Below, in pieces: positions 8,570 to 22,770 of a stretch of DNA of 64,000 nucleotides. A model generated the notes under the pieces. The model searched no databases. It had not been told where the DNA came from and saw nothing but the letters and a program-made list of their open reading frames with translations. Each line of letters starts with the position of its first letter. Position 1 is the first letter of the stretch. Where the stretch lies: positions 1,550,001 to 1,614,000 of the forward strand of contig NZ_JACCFH010000001.1 of NCBI RefSeq assembly GCF_013410775.1. The letters run 5' to 3'. The position numbers and the translations under genes were made by a program. The stretch is from Sphaerotilus montanus (GTDB lineage: Bacteria > Pseudomonadota > Gammaproteobacteria > Burkholderiales > Burkholderiaceae_C).

Positions 8570-9775
8570 TCACGGCGTCTTCACTGCCCGGCTCGCCACC
8601 AACCCCTGCTGCGCCGCCCACCCCGCCACGTCCTCGCGCCGGATCGCCGCCGCCATCAGCCCCGGAAACGCATCCGGCGTGCACGCGAACGACGGCACGC
8701 CCAACCCCGCCAGCTTCGCCGCGAGCTGGTGGTCATAGCTCGGCGCCCCTTCATCGCTCAGCGCCAGCAGCGCCACGCACTGCACCCCGGCTTCCACCAT
8801 CTCCGCCGCGCGCTGCAGCAGCCGCTGCTCCACCCCGCCCTCGATCAGGTCCGAGATCAGCACGAAGATCGTGTTGCGCGGGTCGCGGATCTGGCTCTGG
8901 CAGTAGGCGACCGCACGGCCGATGTCGGTGCCGCCGCCGAGCTGCACGCCGAACAGCAGTTCCACCGGGTCGTCCAGTTGATCGCTCAGGTCGACCACCT
9001 CGGTGTCGAACACCACCAGCTTCGTCGCCACCGCCGGCAGCGACGCCAGCACCGCGCCGAAGATGCTCGAATAGACGACGCTGGCCGCCATCGAGCCGCT
9101 CTGGTCGATGCACAAGATGATCTCGCGCTGCGGGCGGCGCGACTTGCGGCCATGGCCGATCAGTGTTTCGGGGACGACGGTGCGCAGCTCGGGCTGCCAG
9201 TGGCGCAGGTTGGCGCGGATGGTGCGGTGCCAGTCGATCTCGCTGTGGCGCGGGCGGCGGTTGCGCACGCTGCGGTCGATCGCGCCGGTCACGGCCGAGC
9301 GCAGCGGCTCCTCCAGGCGTTTCATGAGCTGGTCGACCACCGACTGCACCACGCGCCGCGCCGTGTCCTTGGTGCCCGCCGGGATCACACGCGACAGCGA
9401 GACGAGGCTGGCCACAAGATGCACGTCCGGCTGCACCGCTTCGAGCATCTCGGGCTGCAGTAGCATCTCGTTCAGGTTCAGCCGCTGCAGGGCGTCGCGC
9501 TGCATCACCTGCACCACCGACGCCGGGAAATACTGGCGAATGTCGCCCAGCCAGCGCACCACGGTCGGCGCGCCGCGGCCCTTGCCCGCCGTGCGCTTGC
9601 CCAGACCACCGGGGCCGTCGGCGTCGTAGAGGGCGGCCAGCGCGCGGTCCATCTCCAGCGCGGCGCCACTCGGGCTGCCGCAGGTGCCGTCGGCTTCCTC
9701 GCCGAGCACGAGGCGCCAGCGTTGCAGGCGGGTCAACGTGGCGGGGCTCTGGTCGTCACTCATGCCATCAGTCAT
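8570..9775 (-). CDS. vWA domain protein (CoxE-like), last gene of MoxR cluster
   Basis: The C-terminal half is a von Willebrand A domain with a complete MIDAS metal site: DQSGS (DxSxS), the threonine of GGGTDIG and the aspartate of LISDLIEGG. The N-terminal half is helical, as in CoxE-like proteins that act with MoxR ATPases. Two starts are possible. The ATG at 9775 overlaps the DUF5682 gene by eight bases, and another at 9763 follows its stop. I use 9775. The frame continues upstream but only as antisense coding shadow. The partner ATPase is two genes upstream. Substrate unknown. Confidence 0.88.
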   Translation of the reverse strand: MTDGMSDDQSPATLTRLQRWRLVLGEEADGTCGSPSGAALEMDRALAALYDADGPGGLGKRTAGKGRGAPTVVRWLGDIRQYFPASVVQVMQRDALQRLNLNEMLLQPEMLEAVQPDVHLVASLVSLSRVIPAGTKDTARRVVQSVVDQLMKRLEEPLRSAVTGAIDRSVRNRRPRHSEIDWHRTIRANLRHWQPELRTVVPETLIGHGRKSRRPQREIILCIDQSGSMAASVVYSSIFGAVLASLPAVATKLVVFDTEVVDLSDQLDDPVELLFGVQLGGGTDIGRAVAYCQSQIRDPRNTIFVLISDLIEGGVEQRLLQRAAEMVEAGVQCVALLALSDEGAPSYDHQLAAKLAGLGVPSFACTPDAFPGLMAAAIRREDVAGWAAQQGLVASRAVKTP

Positions 9776-12020
9776 GCGAAATCGCCTCCCTCGGCAAGCC
9801 GAGCAGTTGATGCAGCAGCGGCAGCGCCCGCGCCACCCGCACCTCGTTCCAGACCGGCCCGTCCGCCGCCGCACCACTCGCCGCGACCTTCGGCGGCTGC
9901 GCGGCGCGTTCGCCGAGCGAGCGGCGTTCGCTGCGGCTGAACTCGGCGAAGCTGCGGCGCACCAGCGGCAGCACCTGCTGGAAATGTGCGTCGCCCAGCC
10001 CGGCAAGCCAGCCGTCGATCAGCGCCCAGATCCGCGCGTCGTGCAGCAGCACCAGCGCGTTGCGGTTCAGGAAACCTTCGAGCCACGACGCCGCTGCGGC
10101 CGGGTCGGTGGCGCGGGACAACTGGTGTTGCAGCGCAATGCCGGCCTCGTCGGCGTTCACCACACCGTCGTCCAGCAGCAGCCGCATCGCCACCCCGCGC
10201 AGCAGCGCCGCCGCCGAGTCGAGCGCCGCCAGCCCGGCCAGCGCACGACGCCATTCCGCGGTCTGATCGTCACCGGCACGCCGGGCCACGGCGGCGTGTG
10301 CGGCCAGCAGCGGCTCGCGCAGCGCATGCGCCGCCTCGTCGTCCAGCGCCGCGCAGGCCAGCGGCAGGCCGATCGCGGCGCGGCCGATCAGGTGGTCGAG
10401 CACCACGCCGACCTGCGCCGTGTCGGTGCCGCGCACGTCGCCGTAGCGGAAGACATGCGCCAGCGGCGGCAGCGTCTGCAGCAGTTGCGCCGTGTCGCCG
10501 GTGACCGCTGCGAGCCGGTCCAGCGCCTGCGTCACCGCCTGCACCGCGCCCGGCAAGTCCGCCCGCAGCACGTCATCGACCAGCGCGGCCAGCACCGGCA
10601 GCGACGTTTCCTGTGCCACGCGGTCGGCGATGCGGCTGCTGGCGGCGGCCTCGACCGTCGTGCCCCAGCGGCTCGCCTCGATCAGCGTGATGGCGAACTC
10701 GGGCGCCCACTGCAGCCGCCACGTCTCATGGAAGCTGCCCTTCGCGCCGCGACTGCCGCGATCCGGCACGCCCCAGTCCAGGTCGAGCAGCCGCAGCCGG
10801 TGCAGCAGCCGGCTGCGCTCCAGGTCGTTCGGCTGGCGCAGGTCCAGATCGAGCACCCGCTGCGCCACCTCGGCCTTCAGGCGCAGGCGTTTCTGCTGCG
10901 CCTCGACATCGCGCTGCAGCGGCACGATCGGCACATCGGCCGGCACCGTGCCGAGCGCCTCGCCGACGTGCAGCGCGTGCCCGATCAGGCCGAGCACCGC
11001 GTCGTCGCCCTGCCCGATGACGCTGCGCACGGCCTCGTCCAGGTCGGCCAGCCCCGGCGTCGCGTGGCCGCGCAGCGTGGCGAGCGTGTCGGCGAGCCGG
11101 ATGGCTTCGATGACGTGGGCGCTGGAGCAGTCGATCTCGTGGGCGCGCAGCAGCGTGGCGACCTTGGCGAGCCAGCCGGCGGCGCGGGGGTGGCGGTCCG
11201 GGTCGTGCTGCCACAGGAAGTCGTACCAGCCCGGCGAGACGACACCCGCGCCATACCCCGCGCGCGTCAGGTGCCGGTGCGACCACGGCACCCAGGTCGC
11301 CTGCACCTTGAGCTTGGGCAGGCCCTTGAGCGTTGCAGCGTCGGCCTTGACGCTCGACACACCGTCCTGCAGCGCCGGCACGTGCCACGCGCCGCAGACG
11401 ACGGCGATGCGCGCAAAGCCTTCCTTGCGCGCCGCGCGCAGGCACTGGCGCATGTGGGCCTCGCGCTGCGCCTCGCGGTCGTCGGGCGGCGGCTCGTCGC
11501 GGCGCATCTCAGTCATCGCCTCGGCGATGGCGGCGAAGATGCCGGTGTCGTCACCACGTTCCTCGACCCAGCGGTTCCACCAGCTCTCGCCGTCCGGGTG
11601 GCCGTCGGCGCGGGCGAAGTCGTCGAAGGGGTCACTGCGCGGGCGGCGTGGTTCGGTGGGCTCGACCGGCACCTCGGCTTCCGCCTGATCCAGCGCCAGC
11701 GCATGCGCCCGCGGCAGGTCAATGAACCGCGCCGTGACCCCACGCCCGACCGCCCACTGCAGCGCCTGCCACTCCGGCGAGAAGCGCGCGAACGGGTAGA
11801 ACACCGCCCGCTGCGGCACGTCGAGCGCGTGGACCAGCAGCGCCACCGGCGGCACCAGCGCCGCGTCGGCGAGGTGGTGGAGCAGCGCATCCGCCTCGGG
11901 CGGGCCTTCGACGAGCAGCGCGTCGGGCTGCCACTCGTCGAGCGCCTGGCGCAAGCTGCGCGCGCAGCCGGGGCCGTGGTGGCGGATGCCAAAAAGGCGA
12001 ACCTCGGGCGTCGTGCTCAT
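9768..12020 (-). CDS. DUF5682 family protein
   Basis: This 750-residue protein starts MSTTPEVRLFGIRHHGPGC. The opening IRHHGPG motif and LLVEGPPEADAL, followed by a long alpha-helical remainder, match DUF5682. The N-terminal pattern (HHGPG, then an acidic VEGPPE) recalls TraB/ChaN/erythromycin-esterase-like domains, but that is only an impression. No transmembrane segment or signal peptide is visible. The open frame runs further upstream into the MoxR gene; the ATG at 12020, five bases after the MoxR stop, is clearly the real start. It probably works with the MoxR-vWA pair around it. Confidence 0.82.
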   Translation of the reverse strand: MSTTPEVRLFGIRHHGPGCARSLRQALDEWQPDALLVEGPPEADALLHHLADAALVPPVALLVHALDVPQRAVFYPFARFSPEWQALQWAVGRGVTARFIDLPRAHALALDQAEAEVPVEPTEPRRPRSDPFDDFARADGHPDGESWWNRWVEERGDDTGIFAAIAEAMTEMRRDEPPPDDREAQREAHMRQCLRAARKEGFARIAVVCGAWHVPALQDGVSSVKADAATLKGLPKLKVQATWVPWSHRHLTRAGYGAGVVSPGWYDFLWQHDPDRHPRAAGWLAKVATLLRAHEIDCSSAHVIEAIRLADTLATLRGHATPGLADLDEAVRSVIGQGDDAVLGLIGHALHVGEALGTVPADVPIVPLQRDVEAQQKRLRLKAEVAQRVLDLDLRQPNDLERSRLLHRLRLLDLDWGVPDRGSRGAKGSFHETWRLQWAPEFAITLIEASRWGTTVEAAASSRIADRVAQETSLPVLAALVDDVLRADLPGAVQAVTQALDRLAAVTGDTAQLLQTLPPLAHVFRYGDVRGTDTAQVGVVLDHLIGRAAIGLPLACAALDDEAAHALREPLLAAHAAVARRAGDDQTAEWRRALAGLAALDSAAALLRGVAMRLLLDDGVVNADEAGIALQHQLSRATDPAAAASWLEGFLNRNALVLLHDARIWALIDGWLAGLGDAHFQQVLPLVRRSFAEFSRSERRSLGERAAQPPKVAASGAAADGPVWNEVRVARALPLLHQLLGLPREAISHD

Positions 12021-12025
12021 CGGGA

Positions 12026-13120
12026 TCAGCCGTGGTCGCGGAAGGCGCGGTACAGGTCTTTCCAGTCGCCGCGTTCCTTCACGACCGTCTCCAGGTATTC
12101 CTTCCACACCACCGCGTCCTGCACCGGATCCTTGATCACCGCGCCGAGCAGCCCCGACGCCAGGTCCGGCGCCCCGACCACGCCGTCGCCGAAATGCCCG
12201 GCCAGCGCCATGCCGTTGCTGACGACCGAGATCGCCTCGGCGGTGGACAGCGTGCCGCTCGGGCTCTTGAGCTTGGTCTTGCCGTCCTCGGTCTGGCCGT
12301 TGCGCAGCTCGCGGAAGATCTGCACCACCCGCTTGACCTCGCGCAGCGCGGGCGGCTCGGCGGGCAGGTCCAGCGCGCGGCCCATCTCGGCGACGCGCTT
12401 GACGACGATCGACAGCTCTTCCGCCTCGCTCGACGGCACCGGCAGGATCACCGTGTTGAAGCGCCGTTTCAGCGCGCTCGACAGCTCGTTGACGCCCTTG
12501 TCGCGGTTGTTCGCGGTGGCGATGACGCTGAAGCCGCGCACCGCCTGCACCTCGCTGCCGAGTTCCGGCACGGGCAGCGTCTTCTCCGACAGCACGGTGA
12601 TCAGCGAGTCCTGCACGTCGGCGGGAATGCGCGTCAGCTCCTCGATGCGGGCGATGCGGCCGGTGCGCATCGCGTTCATCAGCGGGCTGGGCACGAGCGC
12701 CTTCTCGGACGGGCCGTGCGCGAGCAGCTCGGCGTAGTTCCAGCCGTAGCGCAACTGCTCTTCGCCGGTGCCGGCGGTGCCCTGGATCAGCAGGGTCGAG
12801 TCGTTGCTGATCGCGGCGGCGAGGTGTTCCGAGACCCACGATTTGGCGGTGCCGGGCACGCCGAACAGCAACAGGCCGCGGTCAGTCGCCAGCGTGGCCA
12901 CGGCAATCTCCATCAGCCGGCGCGCGCCAATGTACTTCGGGCTGACCTCGAAGCCGTTGTCGAGCCGCCCGCCGAGCAGGTAGGTCACCACCGCCCACGG
13001 CGACAGCTCCCAGTGGTCAGGGCGCTGGCGGCGGTCGGTGCGGCGCAGTTCGTGGAGTTCCTCGGCGTACTGGTGCTCGGCGTGGCGGCGCAGGACGGCG
13101 GTTGAAGTGGTGTCGGTCAT
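12026..13120 (-). CDS. MoxR-family AAA+ ATPase
   Basis: This 364-residue AAA+ protein has Walker A GVPGTAKS (87-94), a Walker B-like RIEEL segment (about 158-162), sensor-1 ATANN (201-205) and an arginine pair in LKRRF (219-220). MoxR ATPases act as chaperone-like remodelling machines, usually with a vWA protein that presents the substrate. The vWA gene lies two genes downstream. Gaps are 12 bases from the DUF5691 stop and five bases to the DUF5682 start, so co-translation is likely. The remodelled client in this cluster is unknown. Confidence 0.93.
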   Translation of the reverse strand: MTDTTSTAVLRRHAEHQYAEELHELRRTDRRQRPDHWELSPWAVVTYLLGGRLDNGFEVSPKYIGARRLMEIAVATLATDRGLLLFGVPGTAKSWVSEHLAAAISNDSTLLIQGTAGTGEEQLRYGWNYAELLAHGPSEKALVPSPLMNAMRTGRIARIEELTRIPADVQDSLITVLSEKTLPVPELGSEVQAVRGFSVIATANNRDKGVNELSSALKRRFNTVILPVPSSEAEELSIVVKRVAEMGRALDLPAEPPALREVKRVVQIFRELRNGQTEDGKTKLKSPSGTLSTAEAISVVSNGMALAGHFGDGVVGAPDLASGLLGAVIKDPVQDAVVWKEYLETVVKERGDWKDLYRAFRDHG

Positions 13121-13132
13121 GTTCAGCGTGAT

Positions 13133-14845
13133 TCAGCGGAAATCGGTGGAGGAAGAAACCGCCGCCACGGGCAGCGCATGAAAGGCTCGGCGCAGCGCCA
13201 CGGCCTGCTGCAGCCGGTCGTGCAGCGGCGCGATCCGGTGGTGCAGCCAGGTCGACGTGGTGGCGCTGGCATTCGGGTCCAGGGCAGCGGGCTCGGGCAG
13301 TGCTTCCACAGCGCCCAGGCACGCCAGCGGCAACCAGGCGATCAGTTCGGGCGCGGTGTCCAGCCAGGCCAGCGCGCGGCGCTCGTCGGCGTGGCGACCG
13401 GCGAACAGGTCGGTCAGTTCGCGCACCATCGCGGCCGACAGCGACGCGGCCAGCGCAGGATCCAGCTGACCGGCCTGTTCGGGGCGGCCGTCGATCAGCG
13501 GCTGTGCGCAGGTGCGCACCACCTCGCCGGCCACGTCCGCGGCTGCGCCGCCCACCCGTTCGCGCCACAGCGCCGTGCGCGCGGCCAGCGGCAGGTGGCT
13601 GCGCAGCGCGGTAACCTCGTGCGCGGGCCAGCCCGGCGCCTCGCGGCAGTCCAGCAGCGCCAGCAGCCAGCGCGCATCGACCGCACCGGGCTGCGCGTCC
13701 GGCTCGCCGGCCACGCCTGCCGAACCCGCCGCCGCCAGCACCGCCTCGCGCCAGCCGCGCAGCAGCGCGTCTTTCCAGTCCGTGCCCCGCGCCCAGTCGA
13801 TCAGCTCGGTCGGCGTCATCGCCATGTGCGCCGGCCAGAACGCGGGCGCCGTCAGCCGCGCCAGTTGGTACAGCCACCAGCCGCGTTCGCCCAGGCCGTC
13901 GTGGCGCGGGCGCTGCGTGTCGAGCCCGCGGGTTTTCCACGCCGGGTCTTCGGCAGTCGGCGGCTCGACATGCCAGCGCTTCTTCAACCCAAGCCACGCC
14001 GACTCGACCCGCAGCAGCGCCGACCACTGCCCCGCCAGCCACGCCGACTGCTCGCTGTCCGGCAAGCGCGGCAGCAGTTGCGCCGCCAGCGTGCGCACGT
14101 CACCCGCCCGGTCACGCAGCAGCTTGACCAGCAGCGGCTCGTCCGCCGCGGACAGGCCCACCGCCAGCGCCTCGACCAGCTCGGCGCGCTCGCGAGCGGC
14201 CAGCGACGCCAGCTCGGCGGTCAGGCGCTCGCGGGCGGCGTCGGGGTCGCGGCGGCGTTCGTCCTTGAGGAACGCGAGCCGGGCCGCGCCACTGCCGTGC
14301 GCCCAGTCTTCCTCGGTGGGTTCGGCCGGACGCTCGACGATCGAACGCCAGCGTGGCTGTTGCTGCACCAGCCAGCGCCCGCGCTCGCCCATCACCGCGC
14401 CCACCGCCGGCCGCAGCATCGGCAGCCGCAACGCCAGCGCCAGCATCGGCGGCAGCAGCGCCGCCGGCAGCCGCCAGCCGCGCTGCGCGACCAGCGACAG
14501 GGCCTCATGGCGCAGGCTGTCGGGGACGTCCTCTCCCAGCAAACGCTGCAGGAGCGCCTGGTGCGGCTCGGCAGACAAGGCCGGACGAGTGTCTGGCCGA
14601 GCGGGAGCCGGTGCCTCGGGCAGTGCCTCCGCCAAGGCCAGTCCACCACCGACTCGATGCGCCACCGCCAACACACCCGCGGCCCGCAGCAACACGGTGG
14701 CGTCGTCCTCCGGCGCCGTGGCCAGCGCCTGCATCAACCCGGTCAACGGCGCCGGCCCCTCGCGCAGCAGCGCCCGCAACCCCGGCGAGCGCTCCGTGCC
14801 CACCAGCGCGATCGGCAACAGCCGGTCCATCATCGGCCCCGTCAT
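13133..14845 (-). CDS. DUF5691 family helical protein
   Basis: This 570-residue protein is rich in alanine, leucine and arginine. It has repeated amphipathic helices and HEAT-like passages such as KLLRDRAGDVRTLAAQLL, which suggests a scaffold. It begins MTGPMMDRLLPIALVGTERSP, characteristic of DUF5691. The ATG at 14845 overlaps the SWIM-gene stop by four bases, which decides the start even though the frame remains open upstream. No catalytic motif is evident. In other genomes DUF5691 proteins accompany SWIM, MoxR, DUF5682 and vWA genes, as here. Confidence 0.82.
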   Translation of the reverse strand: MTGPMMDRLLPIALVGTERSPGLRALLREGPAPLTGLMQALATAPEDDATVLLRAAGVLAVAHRVGGGLALAEALPEAPAPARPDTRPALSAEPHQALLQRLLGEDVPDSLRHEALSLVAQRGWRLPAALLPPMLALALRLPMLRPAVGAVMGERGRWLVQQQPRWRSIVERPAEPTEEDWAHGSGAARLAFLKDERRRDPDAARERLTAELASLAARERAELVEALAVGLSAADEPLLVKLLRDRAGDVRTLAAQLLPRLPDSEQSAWLAGQWSALLRVESAWLGLKKRWHVEPPTAEDPAWKTRGLDTQRPRHDGLGERGWWLYQLARLTAPAFWPAHMAMTPTELIDWARGTDWKDALLRGWREAVLAAAGSAGVAGEPDAQPGAVDARWLLALLDCREAPGWPAHEVTALRSHLPLAARTALWRERVGGAAADVAGEVVRTCAQPLIDGRPEQAGQLDPALAASLSAAMVRELTDLFAGRHADERRALAWLDTAPELIAWLPLACLGAVEALPEPAALDPNASATTSTWLHHRIAPLHDRLQQAVALRRAFHALPVAAVSSSTDFR

Positions 14846-16251
14846 CGTGCGCCTCCTTCGATGCGGCCGATCTGCCACACGCCCTCGTTGCTGCGCAGCG
14901 TCAGCAGCCGCAGCGTCCGGCCATCCCACTCGCCGTGCAGATCGACCAGACCGCCGCCGGCCAGCGCCAGCAGCGTCGGCACCTGCTCGACCGGCACGTT
15001 CAGCGGCAGCGCGTGCACGTCGCCGCAGGCCCAGACGTCGTCCTCGACCACCCGGATCGTCGCCCCCGCCAGCCGCAGCGGCCACAGCGGCAGCCAAGCG
15101 TGTGCCGCCATCGCCGCCGCCGCGCGGTCGAGTTCGTCGTCCCACCCGGCGGGCACATGCGCCTCGCCGTCACTGGAGTCCGGCACCGCCTCGCGCTGCA
15201 CCGACAAGGCCCGCAGCGGCGTCGCCGACGGAAAGAACACCAGCCGCCCGGCCCGCGCCTGCCCGGTGATCCAGCTGGTCTCGAAGCCCGTCGTGCCGTG
15301 GCTGAAATCGAGCAGCAGCGCCCGCCGCCCGCTGCGCCGCCCGGACAGCCAGACGCGGCGCTCGACCAGCCGCTGTTCGCGCTCCTCGACGATCTGGCCG
15401 TCCACGCGCCAGACATCGTCCACCGCCTCGCCGCGCGCCAGCACCTCGTCGCGGTCCAGCGGCCAGCCCAGCGTGGCGCGCACATCGGCCAGCACGCCCG
15501 CGTCCAGCGTCGCCCGCCGCTGCACCGCCTCGATCAGCAGTTGCAGCCGCCCGAGCCGGGCCAGCAGCGCGGCGCTGTCGGACTCGGCCGCCGCCGCGTT
15601 CAGCCAGCCGGCCAGCGCCCCTGCCTGTGCATCGACCATGCGGGCGGCCATCGTCTGCCATTCGCCCGCGCTCTCGCGGGTCTGCACCGCCAGGCCGCGC
15701 CGCACCCGGTCGGCGAGCCAGCGCGCCAGTTCCTCCAGGCCCGCATCGATGCGCTGCCAGCGCTTGTCCTGGCGGGCGTTGGTGGTGTCGGGGATCGGTG
15801 CGGCAGCGGGATCGCCGCTGGCCGTCGGGGCCGATGCCGCCACCAAGACGGCATCCTGCTGTTTCTGCTGTTTCTGCTGCTTCTGTTCCTGCTTTTCAGC
15901 CCGCTCGCGCCGCCCTTCCAGCCAGGCGCGCACCCACTCGGGCGGCTCGGCGGGCGTGGTGAAGCGGCTGGTGTCCTGGGCGCGCAGCAGCAGCAGCGCC
16001 AGCCCGTGCTTGCAAGGGAATTTCCGGCTCGGGCACGAGCACTTGAACACCGGACCGCTCAGATCGACCTGCGTCTGATACGGCTTGGACCCGCTGCCCT
16101 GGCACTCGCCCCAGGCCGCCGCGGTGTCGTGGCCCAGGGTCGGCCACTTCGCCGGGGCCAGCAGTCCGCGGGCCGCCTTGGCGGAGGCATCGTCCGGCGC
16201 CAGGGCCAGCACCGCCTCCGTCGTGAGGACTGTCGCTGTCGCTGTGGTCAA
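14842..16251 (-). CDS. SWIM zinc-finger protein, first gene of MoxR cluster
   Basis: This 469-residue protein has a SWIM zinc finger near its N-terminus: CSCPSRKFPCKH supplies C71, C73, C80 and H82 in the CxCx(n)CxH pattern. SWIM domains bind DNA or protein partners. A central stretch (about residues 115-135) is rich in glutamine, lysine and glutamate, probably a flexible or coiled linker. It is the promoter-proximal gene of the five-gene unit, so it may recruit the complex to a target. The upstream 82 bases contain no recognisable operator. Confidence 0.88.
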   Translation of the reverse strand: MTTATATVLTTEAVLALAPDDASAKAARGLLAPAKWPTLGHDTAAAWGECQGSGSKPYQTQVDLSGPVFKCSCPSRKFPCKHGLALLLLRAQDTSRFTTPAEPPEWVRAWLEGRRERAEKQEQKQQKQQKQQDAVLVAASAPTASGDPAAAPIPDTTNARQDKRWQRIDAGLEELARWLADRVRRGLAVQTRESAGEWQTMAARMVDAQAGALAGWLNAAAAESDSAALLARLGRLQLLIEAVQRRATLDAGVLADVRATLGWPLDRDEVLARGEAVDDVWRVDGQIVEEREQRLVERRVWLSGRRSGRRALLLDFSHGTTGFETSWITGQARAGRLVFFPSATPLRALSVQREAVPDSSDGEAHVPAGWDDELDRAAAAMAAHAWLPLWPLRLAGATIRVVEDDVWACGDVHALPLNVPVEQVPTLLALAGGGLVDLHGEWDGRTLRLLTLRSNEGVWQIGRIEGGAR

Positions 16252-16333
16252 TCGAACTCCCCGGATCTGAAGTGCCGGGAAGTCTATCGACGCAACGCCG
16301 TTCAGCGGACACGCCGCGCGTGAACAAGGTCGC

Positions 16334-17968
16334 TCAAACGCAGCCGCTGGCGGCCGTTGCCGCTTCGATCAGCAGGGTCCCCGCCTGCGGCAGCAACTGC
16401 CCGCGGGCCACCAGCGCCTGCACATGGCGCGAGAAGACGGCCAGCGGCCAGCGGGCCTGCGCACTGGCACGCGGGATGCGCAGGACCAGCCGTGCCGCCT
16501 GCAGCTCGGCCTGCAGCACCTGGGCCGGTCGCGGCCCGAGGATCCCGGCCGTCTGCAGCGCGCTCACCTGCCCGATCAGCGCCCCGACCCGTTCGGCGGC
16601 CGTGAACACCGGCGCGCTGCCCGAGTGCGTCACCGGCCCGCCCCAGGCCCACGCCTGCGGCCCGATGCCGAGGCAGGTCTGCGGCGCCTCGGCGCGGGCG
16701 ACGGTGCCGGAGTAGTAGTCGTGCGTGAAACCGGCCGTGTTGCTGTAGATCGAGTTCGGGATCGGCTGCGCCTCGGTCTCGTCCTGCCAGACGTAGTACT
16801 GCCCGGTCTTGCAGTTGACGTACTGCGAGGCGGTGGCGTGGTTGTTCACGGTGGGCTGCGGGGTCTGCTGCAGCGCCTCGAAGTAGGACAGGATCGAGTG
16901 CCCCCACTCGTGCTTGTAGACGTTGCGGTGGCCGTTCACGCCGGCGTACTCGACGCTCATCGTCGTGTAGGTCTGGCTGACACCGCGTGCCTGCGTCAGC
17001 CCGGCGCCGCCCCCGATCCACAGCGACTCGCCCGTGGCCACGTCCTTCACCCGCGGATCCCACACCACGATCACCGAGTCGAAGGCCGGGTCCAGCTCCG
17101 ACAGCACATCGCCCTGCGCCGGCCACCAGCCCTCGCCGACCGGCGACAGCGTCTTCATCGGCTGGCGCGCATGGCGGATGGTCAGCGTGGGCAGCATGTT
17201 GCCGCTGGTCAGCGCCGGGATGTCGCGCTCGACGAACAGCCGGGCCTGCTCGGCGGTCTTGGTCAGTTCGGCGGACGACGAGGTGCCCTGCACATGGCGG
17301 GGCGAGCCGTCCGGGCGGGTGATCACCGCGTCGGTCTGCGGATAGACCAGCAGCAGGATCTTCCAGCGCGGATGCGGCGCATCGGCCACCCGCGGCACCA
17401 GCACCAGATCGTCATACCAGGCGGTCCCCGAAGCCAGCCCGCCCCAGAAACCCAGCCGCGGCGCCACCAGCAGCGGGCTGGTGTCCGAGAGGAAGCTCAT
17501 GCCCACGGCATGCCACGGCGTCGTTCCCAGCGTCGGCGCCGGCTGGTCCCAGCGGCCCAGCACGGAGACGGTCGCGCCCGGACTGCCCGGCTGGTCCGCC
17601 CCGCGCTGCACGTTGTCGGACTTGATCCAGCCCCCCAGGAACAGCGGCACGTTGACCGGCGCGGCCACCGGTTGCCGCCAGAGTGCGTCATCGGGCGACC
17701 GCGCATCGATGCGCACGCTGCGCCGCCCGCTGTGGGCGGTGGTGTTGTCCCAGGTGCCCAGCGCCGTGGTCGACCAGGACTCGAACTCCCACCCGGTCGG
17801 ACGCCCGCCGGGCGAGAAGGCGCCGCCCTCGAACCCGGCATTCGGGATCAGGTTCGCGGGTGCACGGCACAAGGGTGCCGCCAGGGCGGAGCCCAGCAGA
17901 CCGACCGCCAGCAGCGCGGTCGAGAGCAGACGCGGGGCGGGCGGGACAGAACGGACCGAAGAGCGCAT
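16334..17968 (-). CDS. secreted HEWGH zinc metallopeptidase-like protein with CBM-like N-terminus
   Basis: The start at 17968 follows a strong AGGAGG ribosome site and gives a Sec signal peptide ending near ALAAPLC. A carbohydrate-binding-like domain follows (NLIPNAGFEGG, then RRSVRIDARS, about residues 35-190). The C-terminal domain contains HEWGH (353-357, bases 16898-16912), a zincin HExxH motif with E as catalytic base; a downstream glutamate or THDYYSG histidine could complete the zinc site. Length is 544. It probably acts outside the cytoplasm on protein or glycoprotein. I do not recognise a named peptidase family. It is a tandem paralogue of the gene at 18124-19749. Confidence 0.72.
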   Translation of the reverse strand: MRSSVRSVPPAPRLLSTALLAVGLLGSALAAPLCRAPANLIPNAGFEGGAFSPGGRPTGWEFESWSTTALGTWDNTTAHSGRRSVRIDARSPDDALWRQPVAAPVNVPLFLGGWIKSDNVQRGADQPGSPGATVSVLGRWDQPAPTLGTTPWHAVGMSFLSDTSPLLVAPRLGFWGGLASGTAWYDDLVLVPRVADAPHPRWKILLLVYPQTDAVITRPDGSPRHVQGTSSSAELTKTAEQARLFVERDIPALTSGNMLPTLTIRHARQPMKTLSPVGEGWWPAQGDVLSELDPAFDSVIVVWDPRVKDVATGESLWIGGGAGLTQARGVSQTYTTMSVEYAGVNGHRNVYKHEWGHSILSYFEALQQTPQPTVNNHATASQYVNCKTGQYYVWQDETEAQPIPNSIYSNTAGFTHDYYSGTVARAEAPQTCLGIGPQAWAWGGPVTHSGSAPVFTAAERVGALIGQVSALQTAGILGPRPAQVLQAELQAARLVLRIPRASAQARWPLAVFSRHVQALVARGQLLPQAGTLLIEAATAASGCV

Positions 17969-18049
17969 GACAACCTCCTGTTCGACAGGGGTGACAGTGC
18001 CCCTGCGCAAGGTCATCCTGTGCACTTTTCCACGCGCCAGCATTGAGTT

Positions 18050-18061
18050 GAAACAATTTGT
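18050..18061 (-). promoter_or_regulatory. GAAACAA-box upstream of metallopeptidase gene
   Basis: The sequence GAAACAATTTGT lies 82 bases upstream of the 17968 start. It resembles the perfect palindrome found upstream of the tandem paralogue (19830-19844). The bases between box and start also align between the two genes, so the promoter seems to have been duplicated with the coding sequence. The regulator is unknown. Confidence 0.45.
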
Positions 18062-18123
18062 GCGCATCGACTCCGTGCGGCCATCCGGGCGGAGTGGTGG
18101 CTGTCGGCGTGGGGGCCGGTCCC

Positions 18124-19749
18124 TCAGACGCAGCCGATCGCCGCCGTCGCCGCCTCGATCAGCAGCGCGCCGGCCTGGGGCAACAGCCGGCCGCTGTGCA
18201 CCAGTGCCTCCACCTGGCGCGAAAACGCCTGCAGCGGCCCGCTGGCCTGGTGGCTGGCACGGGGCAGGCTCAGCATCCGGCGGGCCGCCTGCAGTTCGGC
18301 CTGCAGGGTCTGGGCCGGACGCGGGCCGAGCATGCCGGCCGTCCGCAGTGCCTGCACCTGCGAGACCAGCGCCTCCACACGCTCGGGCGCCGTGAACACC
18401 GGAGCAGTCCCCGAGTGCGTCACTGGTCCGCCCCAGGCCCAGGCTTGCGGGCCGATGCCGAGGCACACCGCCGGTGCCTCGGCGCGGGCCACCGTGCCGG
18501 AGTAGTAGTCGTGCGTGAAACCAGCCTGGTTGCTGTAGATCGAGTTGGGGGTGGGCTGGTCGAGCGTCTCGTCTAGCCAGACGTACTGCTGACCCGTCTG
18601 GCAGTGGACATACCGCGACGCCATCGTGACGGGCGGCACGGTCGGCTGCGGCGTGCGCTGCAGCGTCTCGAAATGGCTCAGGATCGACGCGCCCCAGTGC
18701 AGCTTGTACACATTGCGGTTGCCGTTGGGGCCGGCGTACGGCAGCGTGACGGTCGTGTAGGTCTGGCGCGTGCCGCGGTACTGCATCCCGCCAAAGCTGG
18801 AACCCAGCCAGAGCGACTCGCCGGTGGCGGTGTCGCGCACCCGCGGCTCCCAGAGCACGATGACCGAATCGAAACCGGGCTCCGCATCCGCCTGCGCATC
18901 CGGCCACCACCGCATGTCACCGTCCGGCGACAGCGTCTGCATCGGCCGGCTGGCGGTGCGCACCGTCAGCGTCGGCAGCATGTTGCCGCTGGTCAGTGCC
19001 GGGATGTCCTGCTCGACGAACAGGCGTGCATGCGCGAGGGCCTGCGTCACTTCGGTCGGCGAAGCCTGTCCCTGCACATGCCGCGCCGTGCCATCGGGCT
19101 GCGTGATGACGGCGTCCGTCTGCGGATAGACCAGCACCAGGATCTTCCAGCGCGGGTGCGGCACCTCGGCGACCCGTGGCACCAGCGTCAGGTCGTCGTA
19201 CCAGGCGGTGCCGGTGGCCAGCCCGCCCCAGAAACCGAGCCGCGCCGAGACCAGCAGCGGGCTGGTGTCGGTGATGAAGCTCATGCCGACCGGGTGCCAC
19301 GGCGTCGTGCCCAGCGTGGGGGCGGGCTGGTCCCAGCGGCCGAGCACGGAGATGGTGGCGCCGGGGCTGGTGGGCTGGTCGTGGCGCTGGAGGTTGTCGG
19401 ACTTGATCCAGCCGCCGAGGAACAGCGGCGTGTTGACCGGGACCGCCGCGCTCTGCAGCCAGTGGCTGTCTTCGGGGCGCGTGGCGTCGATGCGCACGCT
19501 GCGCCGGCCAGTGTGCGCGACCGCGGTGTCCCAGGTACCGAGGGCGCCGCTGTAGGCGGATTGGAAGGTCCAGCCGGGCGGGTTGCCGCCTGGGGAGGGA
19601 CGGCCGTTCTCGAAACCGGGGTTGGCGAGCAGGTTCGCGGGGGCGCGGCACAGGGGCGCCGCCAGCGCCGATCCCGCCAGGCCCAGCGCGAGGAGCGCCG
19701 TGGAGATCCGCCGCAGGGCGGGAACGGGGTGGGTGTTCGGTGTGCGCAT
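18124..19749 (-). CDS. paralogue of the metallopeptidase with destroyed zinc motif
   Basis: This 541-residue protein is collinear with its neighbour at 16334-17968: signal peptide, NLLANPGFENG carbohydrate-binding-like domain, and a C-terminal domain that also ends 192 residues after the motif position. Where the neighbour reads KHEWGHS, this copy reads KLHWGAS (residues 350-354, bases 18688-18702). Both histidines and the catalytic glutamate are gone, while THDYYSG and the surrounding sequence remain. It is therefore probably a pseudoenzyme, such as a binding protein, regulator or decoy, rather than decay, because the frame is intact. AGGAG precedes the start. Confidence 0.72.
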   Translation of the reverse strand: MRTPNTHPVPALRRISTALLALGLAGSALAAPLCRAPANLLANPGFENGRPSPGGNPPGWTFQSAYSGALGTWDTAVAHTGRRSVRIDATRPEDSHWLQSAAVPVNTPLFLGGWIKSDNLQRHDQPTSPGATISVLGRWDQPAPTLGTTPWHPVGMSFITDTSPLLVSARLGFWGGLATGTAWYDDLTLVPRVAEVPHPRWKILVLVYPQTDAVITQPDGTARHVQGQASPTEVTQALAHARLFVEQDIPALTSGNMLPTLTVRTASRPMQTLSPDGDMRWWPDAQADAEPGFDSVIVLWEPRVRDTATGESLWLGSSFGGMQYRGTRQTYTTVTLPYAGPNGNRNVYKLHWGASILSHFETLQRTPQPTVPPVTMASRYVHCQTGQQYVWLDETLDQPTPNSIYSNQAGFTHDYYSGTVARAEAPAVCLGIGPQAWAWGGPVTHSGTAPVFTAPERVEALVSQVQALRTAGMLGPRPAQTLQAELQAARRMLSLPRASHQASGPLQAFSRQVEALVHSGRLLPQAGALLIEAATAAIGCV

Positions 19750-19829
19750 GACAGGCTCCTGTGCGACGGGAGTTGCAGCTCTCCGTCAAAAACCATCTTG
19801 CGCAGGCGAATCTGCAGGGCACTTGATCC

Positions 19830-19844
19830 GAAACAACTTGTTTC
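19830..19844. promoter_or_regulatory. palindromic GAAACAA-c-TTGTTTC operator candidate
   Basis: A perfect 15-base inverted repeat with seven-base arms lies 81 bases upstream of the 19749 start. The same position relative to the neighbouring paralogue carries a related but less symmetric copy (18050-18061). Matching location and sequence support a shared DNA-binding regulator. Confidence 0.5.
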
Positions 19845-19967
19845 AGTAACTGGGCGCAACAAGCGAGACGGTTCAGTGCCGCTTCAGCGTCGGCGCGCGG
19901 GGTCGCCGGCAGGGTGAAAAGTATGCGGGGATCAAATCTCGTCCGGTTCGAGACGGAACCATGTTGA

Positions 19968-19990
19968 GCGTGAATTCTTTCACGCGTGAA
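19968..19990. promoter_or_regulatory. triple GCGTGAA half-site cluster
   Basis: Three copies of the same half-site overlap here: GCGTGAA (19968-19974), its inverse TTCACGC (19979-19985) and again GCGTGAA (19984-19990). TTCACGCGTGAA is a perfect 12-base palindrome. It lies at the edge of the lower-GC cassette region, in a 583-base stretch (19750-20332) with no gene. It may be an operator, but its target gene is unclear. Confidence 0.35.
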
Positions 19991-20025
19991 ATCGAAATGA
20001 AAAACTATGCTCGCATGGCTTTGAC

Positions 20026-20201
20026 GGCGTAACAGGTTACGCCAGCAGTGCAGGCTTTGAGCCTGCTTTACGGGAGTGAAACCATGTAACGCAGAAAAAA
20101 ACTTCAATCTCAGCGCGAACTTACGTTCCGTCGCCCACAAGATGATACGCAGCATCGTGGTTGTTACGCCGGCAAGGCGTGACGTCGATATTACGTTAGG
20201 C
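20026..20201 (+). repeat. inverted repeats and core site of a possible degenerate attC
   Basis: Within the gene-free stretch before the first cassette gene I see a perfect inverted repeat GGCGTAAC-AG-GTTACGCC (20026-20043), a hairpin with arms GCAGGCT and AGCCTGC (20050-20066), and a second GTTACGCC (20163-20170) that can pair with the first GGCGTAAC. A consensus integron core site GTTAGGC occurs at 20195-20201. It would form the left boundary of the cassette ending in the attC at 20842. Its partner arm could not be assigned with confidence. Confidence 0.4.
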
Positions 20202-20332
20202 CGTGCGGTGAGCGCAGCAGTTCAAAACGGAAGTCGACGGCCTTAGGCTCGGCGTGACTATGGTCGAGGTACAGGTCCGGGCACTGAGTCAACGCCATTA
20301 CTGACAATGCCGACTGGCATTAGGAGAAGAAC

Positions 20333-20749
20333 ATGAGCACGAAACTGATAACCGGCAAGTTGTACAAGAAAGTCGGCAGAGACGAGGTGTATTACTTCGA
20401 TCAAGACACGCTTCGCTACGTTCAGAGCATCGACACTCTTAACGGCGTGTTTGATGGCGTCCTGCAGGAATCGCCAACAATCGACGCCCTGATTGACGGC
20501 GCACCGAAGGGTGATCCGATCGTACCAGGAAGCTATCTCGCCAAGAGCGAGATATCCGACACCGTGTATTTTATCGACTCGCTCGGAGGAGCGGTGAAAA
20601 AGCGTGCGATATCGACCTCGCCCGTATTTGAAGCGCGCAGCTTCAAGTGGAGCACCATCATGACAGTGCCCTGGCTGACACTGGGAGCGATTCCTGACGG
20701 GCCAGCGATAACGATTGGTTACGACGACAACGGTAATCCGATCACGTAA
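20333..20749 (+). CDS. integron cassette-encoded hypothetical protein
   Basis: This 138-residue protein follows a good ribosome site (AGGAGAAG) and has no recognised family. It seems to contain two related units: KKVGRDEVYYFDQDTLRYV near residue 12, and KSEISDTVYFIDSLGGAVKKR near residue 71. No signal peptide or membrane segment is visible. Base composition is clearly less GC-rich than the surrounding chromosome. It is followed 92 bases later by a good attC site in the same orientation, the normal layout of a mobile integron gene cassette. Function unknown. Confidence 0.75.
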   Translation: MSTKLITGKLYKKVGRDEVYYFDQDTLRYVQSIDTLNGVFDGVLQESPTIDALIDGAPKGDPIVPGSYLAKSEISDTVYFIDSLGGAVKKRAISTSPVFEARSFKWSTIMTVPWLTLGAIPDGPAITIGYDDNGNPIT

Positions 20750-20841
20750 TTAGATTGCGTTGATTGAACGCACGGCGAATCGAGGCTTATTGCTCCGGGC
20801 GATCGGAGTCCGATTCTGGCACCTCTATCTGGCCTAATCCG

Positions 20842-20948
20842 GCCTAACAAATCGTTGGACCGGAGCGGCGCGGCAGCTCGTTTCGCAAGTTGATTGCTCG
20901 GCGGAGCTTGAATGAATTCGCGCCGCCCGGTCAACTCAATCGTTAGGG
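20842..20948 (+). repeat. integron attC recombination site
   Basis: The 107-base imperfect palindrome starts with the inverse core GCCTAAC (20842-20848) and ends with GTTAGGG (20942-20948). The outer arms pair: TAACaaaTCGTTggaccgg at the left matches ccggTcaactcaatcGTTA at the right, with extra unpaired bases as in real attC stems, then GCGGCGC pairs with GCGCCGC. The core GTTAGGG deviates from GTTRRRY at the last base. Cleavage after G20942 would release a cassette starting at about 20196. Confidence 0.8.
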
Positions 20949-21010
20949 TGCGCCGTGAAAAGGCGCTTTTTTCTAGGCGCCTGTCGGACTTGAGCTATAC
21001 CAAGATTCCA

Positions 21011-21544
21011 ATGCGCAAAATTCATTCGTTCTTCATCGCCATCGCACTTTGCACGACAGCGCTGGCGCATGCCGGCACACAGGTACTTGGTTTCGAGATC
21101 GGCGTCACAACAGTCGAACAACTCAGGGAAACTCTATCGAAGAAAACAGAGCTTGAGCCGTCTGGCACGAACAAGTACTCCGGCGGAGAAATGTTGAAGA
21201 CGGATGGTGCGGTCTATGATATTGAAGGCCTCACCAGCGTCTTGTACGTTTTCGATGACCAGAAGAAACTCGCTGGCGTGTTCATGGACATGGGAAAACA
21301 TCGGTTCGATGCCATCTTCCAGTTCCTGAGCAAAAAGTACAAAGTATCTGCGCAACAGCATCCGTTTGTCGGCGATCAGTTCGCAAGTTTCCGCCCGGCC
21401 GATACCCTCATCGAAATGGATGCTCCGCACCTCGGATTCACGATGGAAGTCCGGTATATCCGGAACGACCTCTTGCAAAAATTCAAGGCGCAAAGCAAGG
21501 CCGAGGCCGCAGCGAAGAGGAATTCAGAGGCCTCGAAGTTCTGA
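21011..21544 (+). CDS. exported hypothetical protein, second cassette gene
   Basis: I choose the ATG at 21011 because it begins a signal peptide, MRKIHSFFIAIALCTTALAHAG. The earlier in-frame ATG at 20912 lies inside the attC stem. The mature protein (about 155 residues) has no recognised domain; it contains FEIGVTTVEQLRETL and a lysine/alanine-rich C-terminus. The pattern is loosely like small periplasmic proteins that compare two calculated states, but no function is proposed. It follows the attC directly, so it is probably another cassette. I find no attC after it, before the reverse-strand CoA transferase. Confidence 0.7.
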   Translation: MRKIHSFFIAIALCTTALAHAGTQVLGFEIGVTTVEQLRETLSKKTELEPSGTNKYSGGEMLKTDGAVYDIEGLTSVLYVFDDQKKLAGVFMDMGKHRFDAIFQFLSKKYKVSAQQHPFVGDQFASFRPADTLIEMDAPHLGFTMEVRYIRNDLLQKFKAQSKAEAAAKRNSEASKF

Positions 21545-21603
21545 GTATTGCCTGATCGGGTGGGTAGCTGGAGTCAAGCCCAATACCCTCCTGCTGAAAC
21601 AAC

Positions 21604-22770
21604 TCAGCGCAACGTCAGCGCCGGCGCCGTCAACCGCTGCATCCCCTCGTCCCGCGTCACCGGCGCCCGCCCGAACAGCGCCTCATGCGCGCCCAGCACC
21701 GGCGTGACGCAGCAATCCGCGCCCGCGAACCGCTCGACCCACACCGCCAGCGGCCGGCTGGCGATCAGAGCCCCCAGCTCGTCGATCAGCCCCCGCGCCG
21801 CCTCGCTGCCCGGCGCTTCCCCCAGGCTCCAGTGCCGCGCCGCCCAGTCCTCGCGCCCGACCACCGCGCACACGCCCTGCCAGAACTTCAGCTCCAGCGC
21901 CCCGACCGCCAGCCAGCGGTTGTCGGCGCAGCGGTAGAGGTTGTAGCAAGGCACGCCGCCGTTGAGCAGCGACGCGCCCGGTGCGGGCGACTCGCCGTCA
22001 GCCAGCGCGTCGGTGCCGAGGATCACCTGGTGCTGGCGCACCGCGTCGGTCATCGACACGTCGACCCAGCGCCCCTGCCCCGTCCACTGCGCGCCGAGCA
22101 CGGCGGCCAGCGTGCCGATCGCCGCGGTCTGCGCGCCGCCGAGCTGGTCGGCGATCTGCAGGTGGCTGAAGACCGGGCGGCCGTCGGGCGTGCGCGTCTG
22201 GTCGACCACGCCGGCCAGCGACAGGTAGTTCAGGTCGTGCCCGGCCGCCAGCCGCAGCGGGCCTTCCTGCCCGTAGCCGCTGATGCTGGTCAGCACGGTG
22301 GCCGGGTTGATCGCCTGCAGCGCCTCGTAGCCCAGGCCGAGCCGCTCCATCACGCCGGGCCGGAAACCTTCGACGACCGCGTGCGCCTCGGCGACCAGCG
22401 CGCGCAGCGTGGCGAGCTGGTCCGGCTGCTTCAGGTCGAGCACCAGCCGGCGCTTGCCGTGGTTGACGACGCGGTAGAAGTGCGAAACGCCGTCTTCACC
22501 CGGCCCCATGTAGGCCGCGTCATCGCCCGGCAGACCAGGGCGGCCGGGCAGCGGCGGCTCGACCTTGAGCACCTGCGCGCCCAGATCGGCCAGGTGCCGG
22601 CACGCCATCGGGCCAGGCAGCAGCCGCGACAGGTCCAGCACCCGCAGCGGCGCCAGCGGTCGCTGACGCTCGGACGCGGGCGGGCCGTCGTGGGCGGTGA
22701 TCGGGGGGGCCTCGGTCCAGGCGTCAGCCCATGACCGGGCGCCCTGCGGGGGGGTCTTCTCGGCAAGCAT
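21604..22770 (-). CDS. CaiB/BaiF (family III) CoA transferase or acyl-CoA racemase
   Basis: This 388-residue protein contains the family opening LRVLDLSRLLPGPMACRHLADLGAQVLKVEPP, split here by position: LRVLDLSRLLPGP near residue 42 and VLKVEPP near 68. A conserved SHFYRVVNHGKRRLVLDLK segment follows. Members transfer CoA between acids or epimerise 2-methylacyl-CoA (AMACR). I cannot tell which. The start ATG at 22770 has an AGGAG site. The first 35 residues are an extension rich in proline. It lies directly beside the cassette DNA and converges on it. Confidence 0.85.
   Translation of the reverse strand: MLAEKTPPQGARSWADAWTEAPPITAHDGPPASERQRPLAPLRVLDLSRLLPGPMACRHLADLGAQVLKVEPPLPGRPGLPGDDAAYMGPGEDGVSHFYRVVNHGKRRLVLDLKQPDQLATLRALVAEAHAVVEGFRPGVMERLGLGYEALQAINPATVLTSISGYGQEGPLRLAAGHDLNYLSLAGVVDQTRTPDGRPVFSHLQIADQLGGAQTAAIGTLAAVLGAQWTGQGRWVDVSMTDAVRQHQVILGTDALADGESPAPGASLLNGGVPCYNLYRCADNRWLAVGALELKFWQGVCAVVGREDWAARHWSLGEAPGSEAARGLIDELGALIASRPLAVWVERFAGADCCVTPVLGAHEALFGRAPVTRDEGMQRLTAPALTLR

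Follow-up and report, generated by a model that had tools for sequence, protein, structure and literature searches.

Active metallopeptidases that are accompanied by a homologue without a metal site have been described in several systems. In Helicobacter pylori, the M23B LytM proteins Csd1 and Csd2 were shown to form a heterodimer through helical domains; one homologue has a zinc site and that of the other is degenerate and metal-free, the dead member keeping its groove (PMC5053510). The M16B pairs TTHA1264/TTHA1265 and SPH2681/SPH2682 and the mitochondrial MPP likewise combine active homologues with homologues lacking the HXXEH motif; TTHA1264 and TTHA1265 are encoded by neighbouring genes, and the dimer is needed for activity (PMC12731061, PMC11266112). 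The Csd report also mentions EnvC, a LytM factor of Escherichia coli, as an envelope pseudo-metallopeptidase that acts by binding and activates an amidase (PMC5053510). Here we describe two tandem genes, A and B, in a stretch of 64,000 nucleotides from Sphaerotilus montanus (NZ_JACCFH010000001.1, positions 1,550,001 to 1,614,000), referred to as the window. They encode a secreted zincin-like protein with an intact HEWGH motif and a paralogue in which the whole putative catalytic set is gone, while the signal peptide, the glycan-binding-like N-terminus and the scaffold are kept.

Active/dead metallopeptidase pairs are thus already known in kind. The locus differs from the described pairs in several respects: neither A nor B matched the M23 or M16 families, the motif is HEXXH and not HXXEH, and the relatives of A and B are single genes. 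EnvC also belongs to another family than A and B. NlpD is likewise without catalytic residues.

The two paralogues and their motif region

Genes A and B lie collinearly on the minus strand, with B first. Gene A (16334-17968, including the stop codon) encodes a protein of 544 aa with HEWGH, and gene B (18124-19749, including the stop codon) a secreted, motif-dead paralogue of 541 aa with LHWGA. Both are open frames, with AGGAGG before the ATG of A and AGGAG before that of B. The open frame of A continues further upstream, and its ATG was picked by the ribosome site and the signal peptide. The proteins are 72% identical in a protein alignment with three small in-frame gaps and have an equal architecture. 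Signal peptides were read by eye from the translations and comprise residues 1-30, ending in ALA, in both A (17879-17968) and B (19660-19749). The reading frame of B is intact, with neither a frameshift nor a stop. When the window's own genome was searched with A at E<=0.001, only A and B were matched. A sequence-only reading of the window had proposed tandem secreted paralogues at 16334-19749, one with HEWGH and one motif-dead, with a shared signal peptide, a carbohydrate-binding module (CBM)-like N-terminus and equal lengths from the motif onwards. Its coordinates, motifs and lengths were right, and the shared features were borne out.

The HEWGH motif of A (residues 353-357, 16898-16912) is found in the context KHEWGHS and the replaced motif of B (residues 350-354, 18688-18702) in the context KLHWGAS. 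From the motif start to the C-terminus, 192 residues follow in both proteins. In the numbering of A, the replacements in B are H353L, E354H and H357A, brought about by the codon changes CAC to CTG, GAG to CAC and CAC to GCG. In all, 7 of the 9 nucleotides differ, which exceeds what one lesion would be expected to produce. The blocks GFTHDYYSG and GPQAWAWGGPVTHSG are identical between A and B, and the earlier statement that all three HExxH residues are replaced next to conserved blocks holds.

For comparison we used the two full-length relatives found outside the window, L004 from Aquabacterium sp. CECT 9606, which keeps HEWGH, and L005 from an Aquabacterium metagenome-assembled genome (MAG), which reads QQWGV. 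The losses in the two dead members B and L005 extend beyond the motif. His377 of A (16838-16840) lies 24 residues after His353, which we take to be the spacing to the third zinc ligand in thermolysin-type zincins, and because of this spacing we propose it as a candidate third ligand, a lead from the alignment. The column holds His in A and L004, Val in B (Val374, 18628-18630) and Asn in L005. Another histidine, His347 (16928-16930), is kept in both intact members and is Asn in both dead ones. H353, E354, H357, H347, H377 and E340 are all among the residues lost in both dead members. All four proteins share H416, D417 and E397, which are further possible zinc ligands.

To count such changes, 337 columns were compared in which the intact A and L004 agree, and columns 335-385 were defined as the core. 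Both dead members were changed in 34 of the 337 columns, 12 of 42 inside the core and 22 of 295 in the remainder (Fisher P 2.2e-4). When the three motif columns were left out, 9 of the 39 remaining core columns were changed in both (P 0.0048). Nine histidines are common to the intact members from residue 197 onwards. Of these, the four within 347-377 are missing from both dead members. Four of the other five are present in both, and the fifth, H515, is present in L005 but not in B. Of eight conserved glutamates, only E340 and E354 differ from the intact state in both dead proteins, and of the conserved aspartates the same is true of D196, at the edge of the domain.

The remainder of the zincin domain is largely kept. 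Counting columns outside the core that the other three proteins share, B keeps 100 of 110 and L005 100 of 117, compared to 100 of 103 for A and 100 of 108 for L004. B is therefore an otherwise conserved homologue that has lost its presumed catalytic residues, one of the features of a pseudoenzyme. In addition, the zincin domain of B has four histidines (240, 351, 359 and 382) that the other three proteins lack, three of them near the old motif.

Relatives, motif losses and selection

A collection of 84,980 species was scanned once for exact matches to six peptides of A, a scan that can miss members carrying none of the six. It returned 19 loci, of which L004 and L005 were the only full-length ones outside the window; the other 17 matched the N-terminal part only, within residues 5-222. 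L004 (genome G446) and L005 (genome G447) are each the sole match in their own genome, and these are the only 2 of the 42 genomes searched from the genus of L004 that gave a match. None was found in 12 other genomes of the window's genus. The window organism and Aquabacterium seem to belong to one family, as judged from a 1.7 Mb genome, with an identical match on an equally numbered contig, that is common to the samples of both families. Relatives were also sought in overlapping sets of 100, 399, 399, 42, 369, 398 and 259 genomes, in plasmids, phages and viral contigs, and the samples from the family, order, class and phylum gave no further full-length member. Seven genomes (G063, G153, G351, G1299, G1497, G1264 and G1243) were dropped as they matched in the N-terminal part only. 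Three matches were set aside as chance: G194, with 31% identity over 86 residues and two stops, which the profiles miss among open frames of at least 80 aa; L029 in G708, of which only profile positions 77-136 align; and L066 in G1592, a stop-broken frame opposite other genes. A description of this protein family was not found in our searches of open-licence papers.

The sequence-only reading had spoken of a maintained pseudoenzyme paired with an active enzyme and had suggested a search for such pairs in relatives. Dead and active forms occur together in the window genome, whereas the genomes of the two relatives have one form each, and no second active/dead pair was encountered across the genome sets and the pattern scan. 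That reading had named the lack of such pairs in relatives as a refutation, which applies here to the pair and not to the pseudoenzyme. Pairing as a general rule is therefore not supported, and neither form seems to depend on the other everywhere. The maintained pseudoenzyme, on the other hand, is supported by the intact frame, the clustering of changes in the core, the rejection of neutrality for B (see below) and the second dead member L005, whose loss is independent on the preferred tree.

The four proteins were then placed in a tree (A, B, L004 as C and L005 as D). The grouping AB|CD was favoured by 54 log-likelihood (lnL) units in the codon model, and in the protein tree the approximately unbiased test gave a P value (pAU) of 0.994 for AB|CD against 0.0064 and 0.00034 for the alternatives. 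By region, the 138 columns before the core and the 179 after it back A with B. The core tends towards this grouping too, but is not decisive (pAU 0.74 for AB|CD and 0.355 for AC|BD). In the AB|CD tree, an intact protein is paired with a dead one on either side, which requires two losses or more unless a lost motif was regained. The trees suggest that the motif was probably lost twice, independently.

Selection was analysed by codon fits estimating the dN/dS ratio (w), with twice the lnL difference (2dlnL) as the test statistic. In the four-gene fit of the mature protein, w(B) was 0.203 versus a background of 0.063 (2dlnL 13.35), and w(B)=1 was rejected (14.15). For L005, w was 0.113 and not above background (2dlnL 0.38), and w=1 was rejected as well (30.49). 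The zincin region gave a w(B) of 0.243 versus a background of 0.047 (2dlnL 17.88), and here neutrality was rejected for B (8.37) and for L005 (21.61). In the N-terminal module, w=1 was rejected for both (11.49 and 12.79). The three-gene fits, which omit a badly saturated internal branch, returned 0.132 or 0.153 for w(B) and 0.114 or 0.113 for w(A), a difference that was not significant (2dlnL 0.06 and 0.34), and again rejected w(B)=1 over the mature protein (19.67 and 23.74). The dN/dS of the dead copy, proposed earlier as a check, was thus in favour of a maintained protein over mature B as a whole, but its zincin domain had a raised ratio in the four-gene fit that did not significantly exceed that of A in the three-gene fits. 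A partial relaxation of B is possible. The rejection of neutrality is more reliable than the exact values of w, because the silent sites are near saturation and several branch lengths are at their limit.

Neutrality was rejected over the whole B and L005 branches, and an average of this kind does not tell when on the branch the motif was lost. Given that all three residues changed, the probability of 7 of 9 motif changes is 0.06 at a neutral difference of 40% and lower at less, and 0.15-0.31 at 50-60%. This is only a hint that the motif loss of B is not fresh.

Domains and genomic surroundings

The N-terminal module of A (residues 31-196, 17381-17878) is CBM_4_9-like by the profile matches of this region in other proteins, and that of B (residues 31-195, 19165-19659) by alignment with A. 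The N-terminus of A itself had no match in Pfam, CBM_4_9 (PF02018) included. Relatives of the module are found in other architectures. One of them, L023, from the same bacterial family as the window organism, is a 600-aa open frame from near base 196 that encodes an HEVGH protein with the module at its C-terminus. Its residues 437-593 are homologous to the N-terminus of A and match CBM_4_9 at E 9.3e-5, just under the Pfam cutoff. L023 is similar to A and B in joining an HExxH protein to this module, but has another peptidase domain, which is weakly M6-like (Peptidase_M6, E 0.078, below the Pfam cutoff).

The zincin-like domain of A (about residues 197-450, 16619-17380) and the pseudo-zincin domain of B (about residues 196-447, 18409-19164) were delimited by family alignments, and no known family was matched. 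No peptidase family model matched A, B, L004 or L005 in Pfam, nor A and B, the two searched there, in NCBIfam, with HMMER filters that discard most matches above E 0.1; L004 had one spurious leader-peptide match in Pfam. In the first Pfam search and in NCBIfam, A was queried with 18 extra upstream codons, which were omitted in the later Pfam searches. The zincin-like region had no match among PDB sequences at E up to 10. The zincin fold and the zinc site of A, and their relics in B, are accordingly named here as putative, from the motif and its conserved surroundings. At the C-terminus of B, residues 459-538 (18136-18375) are FIMAH-like (PF22888, E 0.0019, 19.2 bits versus a cutoff of 24.8). 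This family was matched below its cutoff by B, L004 and L005, with a best score of 20.2 bits, and not by A.

The spacer between B and A has 155 bases (17969-18123). Crude scans of it detected no promoter-like or terminator-like site, and a shared transcript is only plausible.

Directly downstream of A, the minus strand (9768-16251) has a row of genes for DUF5682, MoxR-like AAA, DUF5691 and SWIM proteins, which resembles MoxR systems without an assigned function; bpMoxR is a sub-cutoff Pfam match. The SWIM zinc-finger gene and a CoA-transferase gene border a variable cargo site (16252-21603). The distance between the two is 5352 bases in the window and takes in A, B and two small frames of no known function on the plus strand, 20333-20749 (138 aa) and 20912-21544 (210 aa). 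The small frames had no Pfam or PHROGs match at E 0.001 and lie in a region of lower G+C (0.577 for 20001-22000). The same gap measures about 124 bases, by the match limits, in G004 of the same genus, about 1.25 kb in G006 and 2.2 kb in G001, with other content in the latter two. The SWIM gene was found in 6 of 13 genus members including the window's own, and these three are 3 of the 5 others; of the remaining two, G005 has the pair of genes on separate contigs and G007 has its SWIM match at the edge of a contig. Because the gap varies among genus members, A and B look like accessory genes.

Upstream of B, a 256-base element (19942-20197) is 81% identical to a sequence at the corresponding intergenic position in G001 and recurs in its own genome as five further partial matches of 76-86%. 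It had no Rfam match at gathering scores and is possibly a dispersed repeat.

The surroundings of the relatives are different ones. Among five hand-picked frames each, L004 is near CheR, ABC, MacB-like and HlyD-like genes and L005 near GST and ABC-importer genes. For ten window neighbours, no tblastn match at E 1e-3 was obtained in the 11.6 kb around L004 or L005. When the flanks were compared by tblastx, the five matches retained per pair had 29-50% identity over 34-122 residues, with a further one covering 11 residues, and two of the matches are inside the window's SWIM and DUF5691 genes (31-32%). These were not counted as synteny because tblastn had found no match to a neighbour.

Possible roles of the motif-dead protein

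In the reading that we prefer, a rare secreted protein of the zincin-like type is present in two tandem copies, A and B. Of these, A is most likely an exported zinc peptidase, judging from HEWGH together with the conserved H347, H377 and E340, and its target may be a surface or a glycan-decorated protein to which it would be recruited by the N-terminal module. B would be exported to the same place and bind the surface or glycoprotein that A cuts, without doing chemistry. It may hold or shield the substrate and, where both proteins are made, could compete with A or tune it. We give about an even chance to this reading, in which the secreted pseudo-zincin B works by binding and possibly in competition with A. 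An inhibitor, a decoy and a partner, the roles suggested for B by the sequence-only reading, are indistinguishable by sequence.

The known pairs suggest another function. B may be part of an obligate or activating heterodimer in which it would pair with A and shape its groove or activate it, and the adjacent collinear genes, the spacer without a terminator-like site, the equal architecture and the precedents of Csd1-Csd2 and M16B are all in line with this. However, the intact L004 and the dead L005 occur singly. Since each relative has just one form, intact or dead, B is probably no obligate subunit of A, a conclusion limited by the number of relatives, only two, of which one is a MAG. For the same reason, binding or competition is preferred over obligate pairing, and we consider the heterodimer unlikely, with a minor share of the probability. 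A further explanation is that B is a duplicate which died fairly recently and is drifting, so that its conservation predates the loss. The elevated w(B) of the zincin domain in the four-gene fit would be expected in this case, as would the neutrality that is not rejected in this domain outside the core, and a branch average does not date the loss. Still, B has no frameshift or stop, its ratio is not significantly above that of A in the three-gene fits, and the changes it shares with L005 cluster in the core. The second dead member shows no rate elevation, and the 7 changed motif nucleotides give a hint in the same direction. We regard a decaying duplicate as rather improbable.

The remaining explanations concern the chemistry. 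That neither protein is a peptidase, with HEWGH in A being structural or glycan-binding and its loss in B of little consequence, would explain why no peptidase family was matched in Pfam or NCBIfam and no PDB sequence relative was found. But the two intact members share the full set of HExxH, the histidine 24 residues later, H347 and E340, and both dead members have lost the set as a unit, a pattern resembling that of a single metal or catalytic site. We find it very unlikely that neither protein is a peptidase. Even less credit is given to a changed chemistry of B, with another metal site or activity gained from the new histidines 240, 351, 359 and 382. Three of the four are close to the old motif, yet L005, the other dead member, does not have them. 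Their spacing in B fits no zinc motif that we know of, and a new activity of this kind is highly improbable.

Several results weigh against B as a maintained binding protein with a motif loss of its own. Over the C-terminal part, w=1 was not rejected for B or L005 (2dlnL 0.69 and 0.03), and in the three-gene fits of the zincin domain without the core it was not rejected for B at 5% (3.65 and 3.39). The silent sites are near saturation, with a four-fold identity between A and B of 0.60 versus 0.46 (A) and 0.42 (B) expected from composition, and some branch lengths are at their bound, which makes the w values rough. In a narrower window of columns 345-365, 5 of 21 were changed in both dead members (P 0.048) and 2 of 18 without the motif (P 0.68), where the enrichment vanishes. 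The genome of L005 is a MAG in which an intact copy could be missing, and with only four family proteins known, any rule rests on very few events. The N-terminal domain gave a pAU of 0.89 for AC|BD, which groups A with L004 and B with L005, versus 0.10 for AB|CD, a preference that was not significant. P340 and N347 are common to both dead members, by convergence or by older shared descent. An old dead lineage, with B and L005 as orthologues and its history blurred by gene conversion, is weakly favoured by the N-terminal domain. It was not adopted; the core does not favour that tree, and the four-fold identity between A and B showed no clear converted tract.

As the loss appears twice among four proteins, the tree points to a binding-only form that may be repeatedly useful. 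In the wider sense, these proteins might constitute an undescribed secreted zincin family, to which none of our sequence searches of Pfam, NCBIfam and PDB gave a name, in which catalytic death has been repeatedly selected. Two of the four known members would then have shed their metal site independently and kept the scaffold, and the window organism would employ both twins, active and dead, at once from its tandem genes, with the dead twin competing for binding of their common target, protecting that target or acting as its chaperone. We offer this extended proposal tentatively, as possible rather than probable. That a family as small as this combines intact, dead and tandem states appeared unusual to us, which is an impression and not the result of a survey. 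The intact form alone, the dead form alone and both in tandem are found across three related bacteria. If confirmed, this would add a secreted HExxH family that our searches of Pfam, NCBIfam and PDB sequences do not name, and would serve as a small natural experiment on the conditions under which a peptidase is of greater value when deprived of its chemistry.

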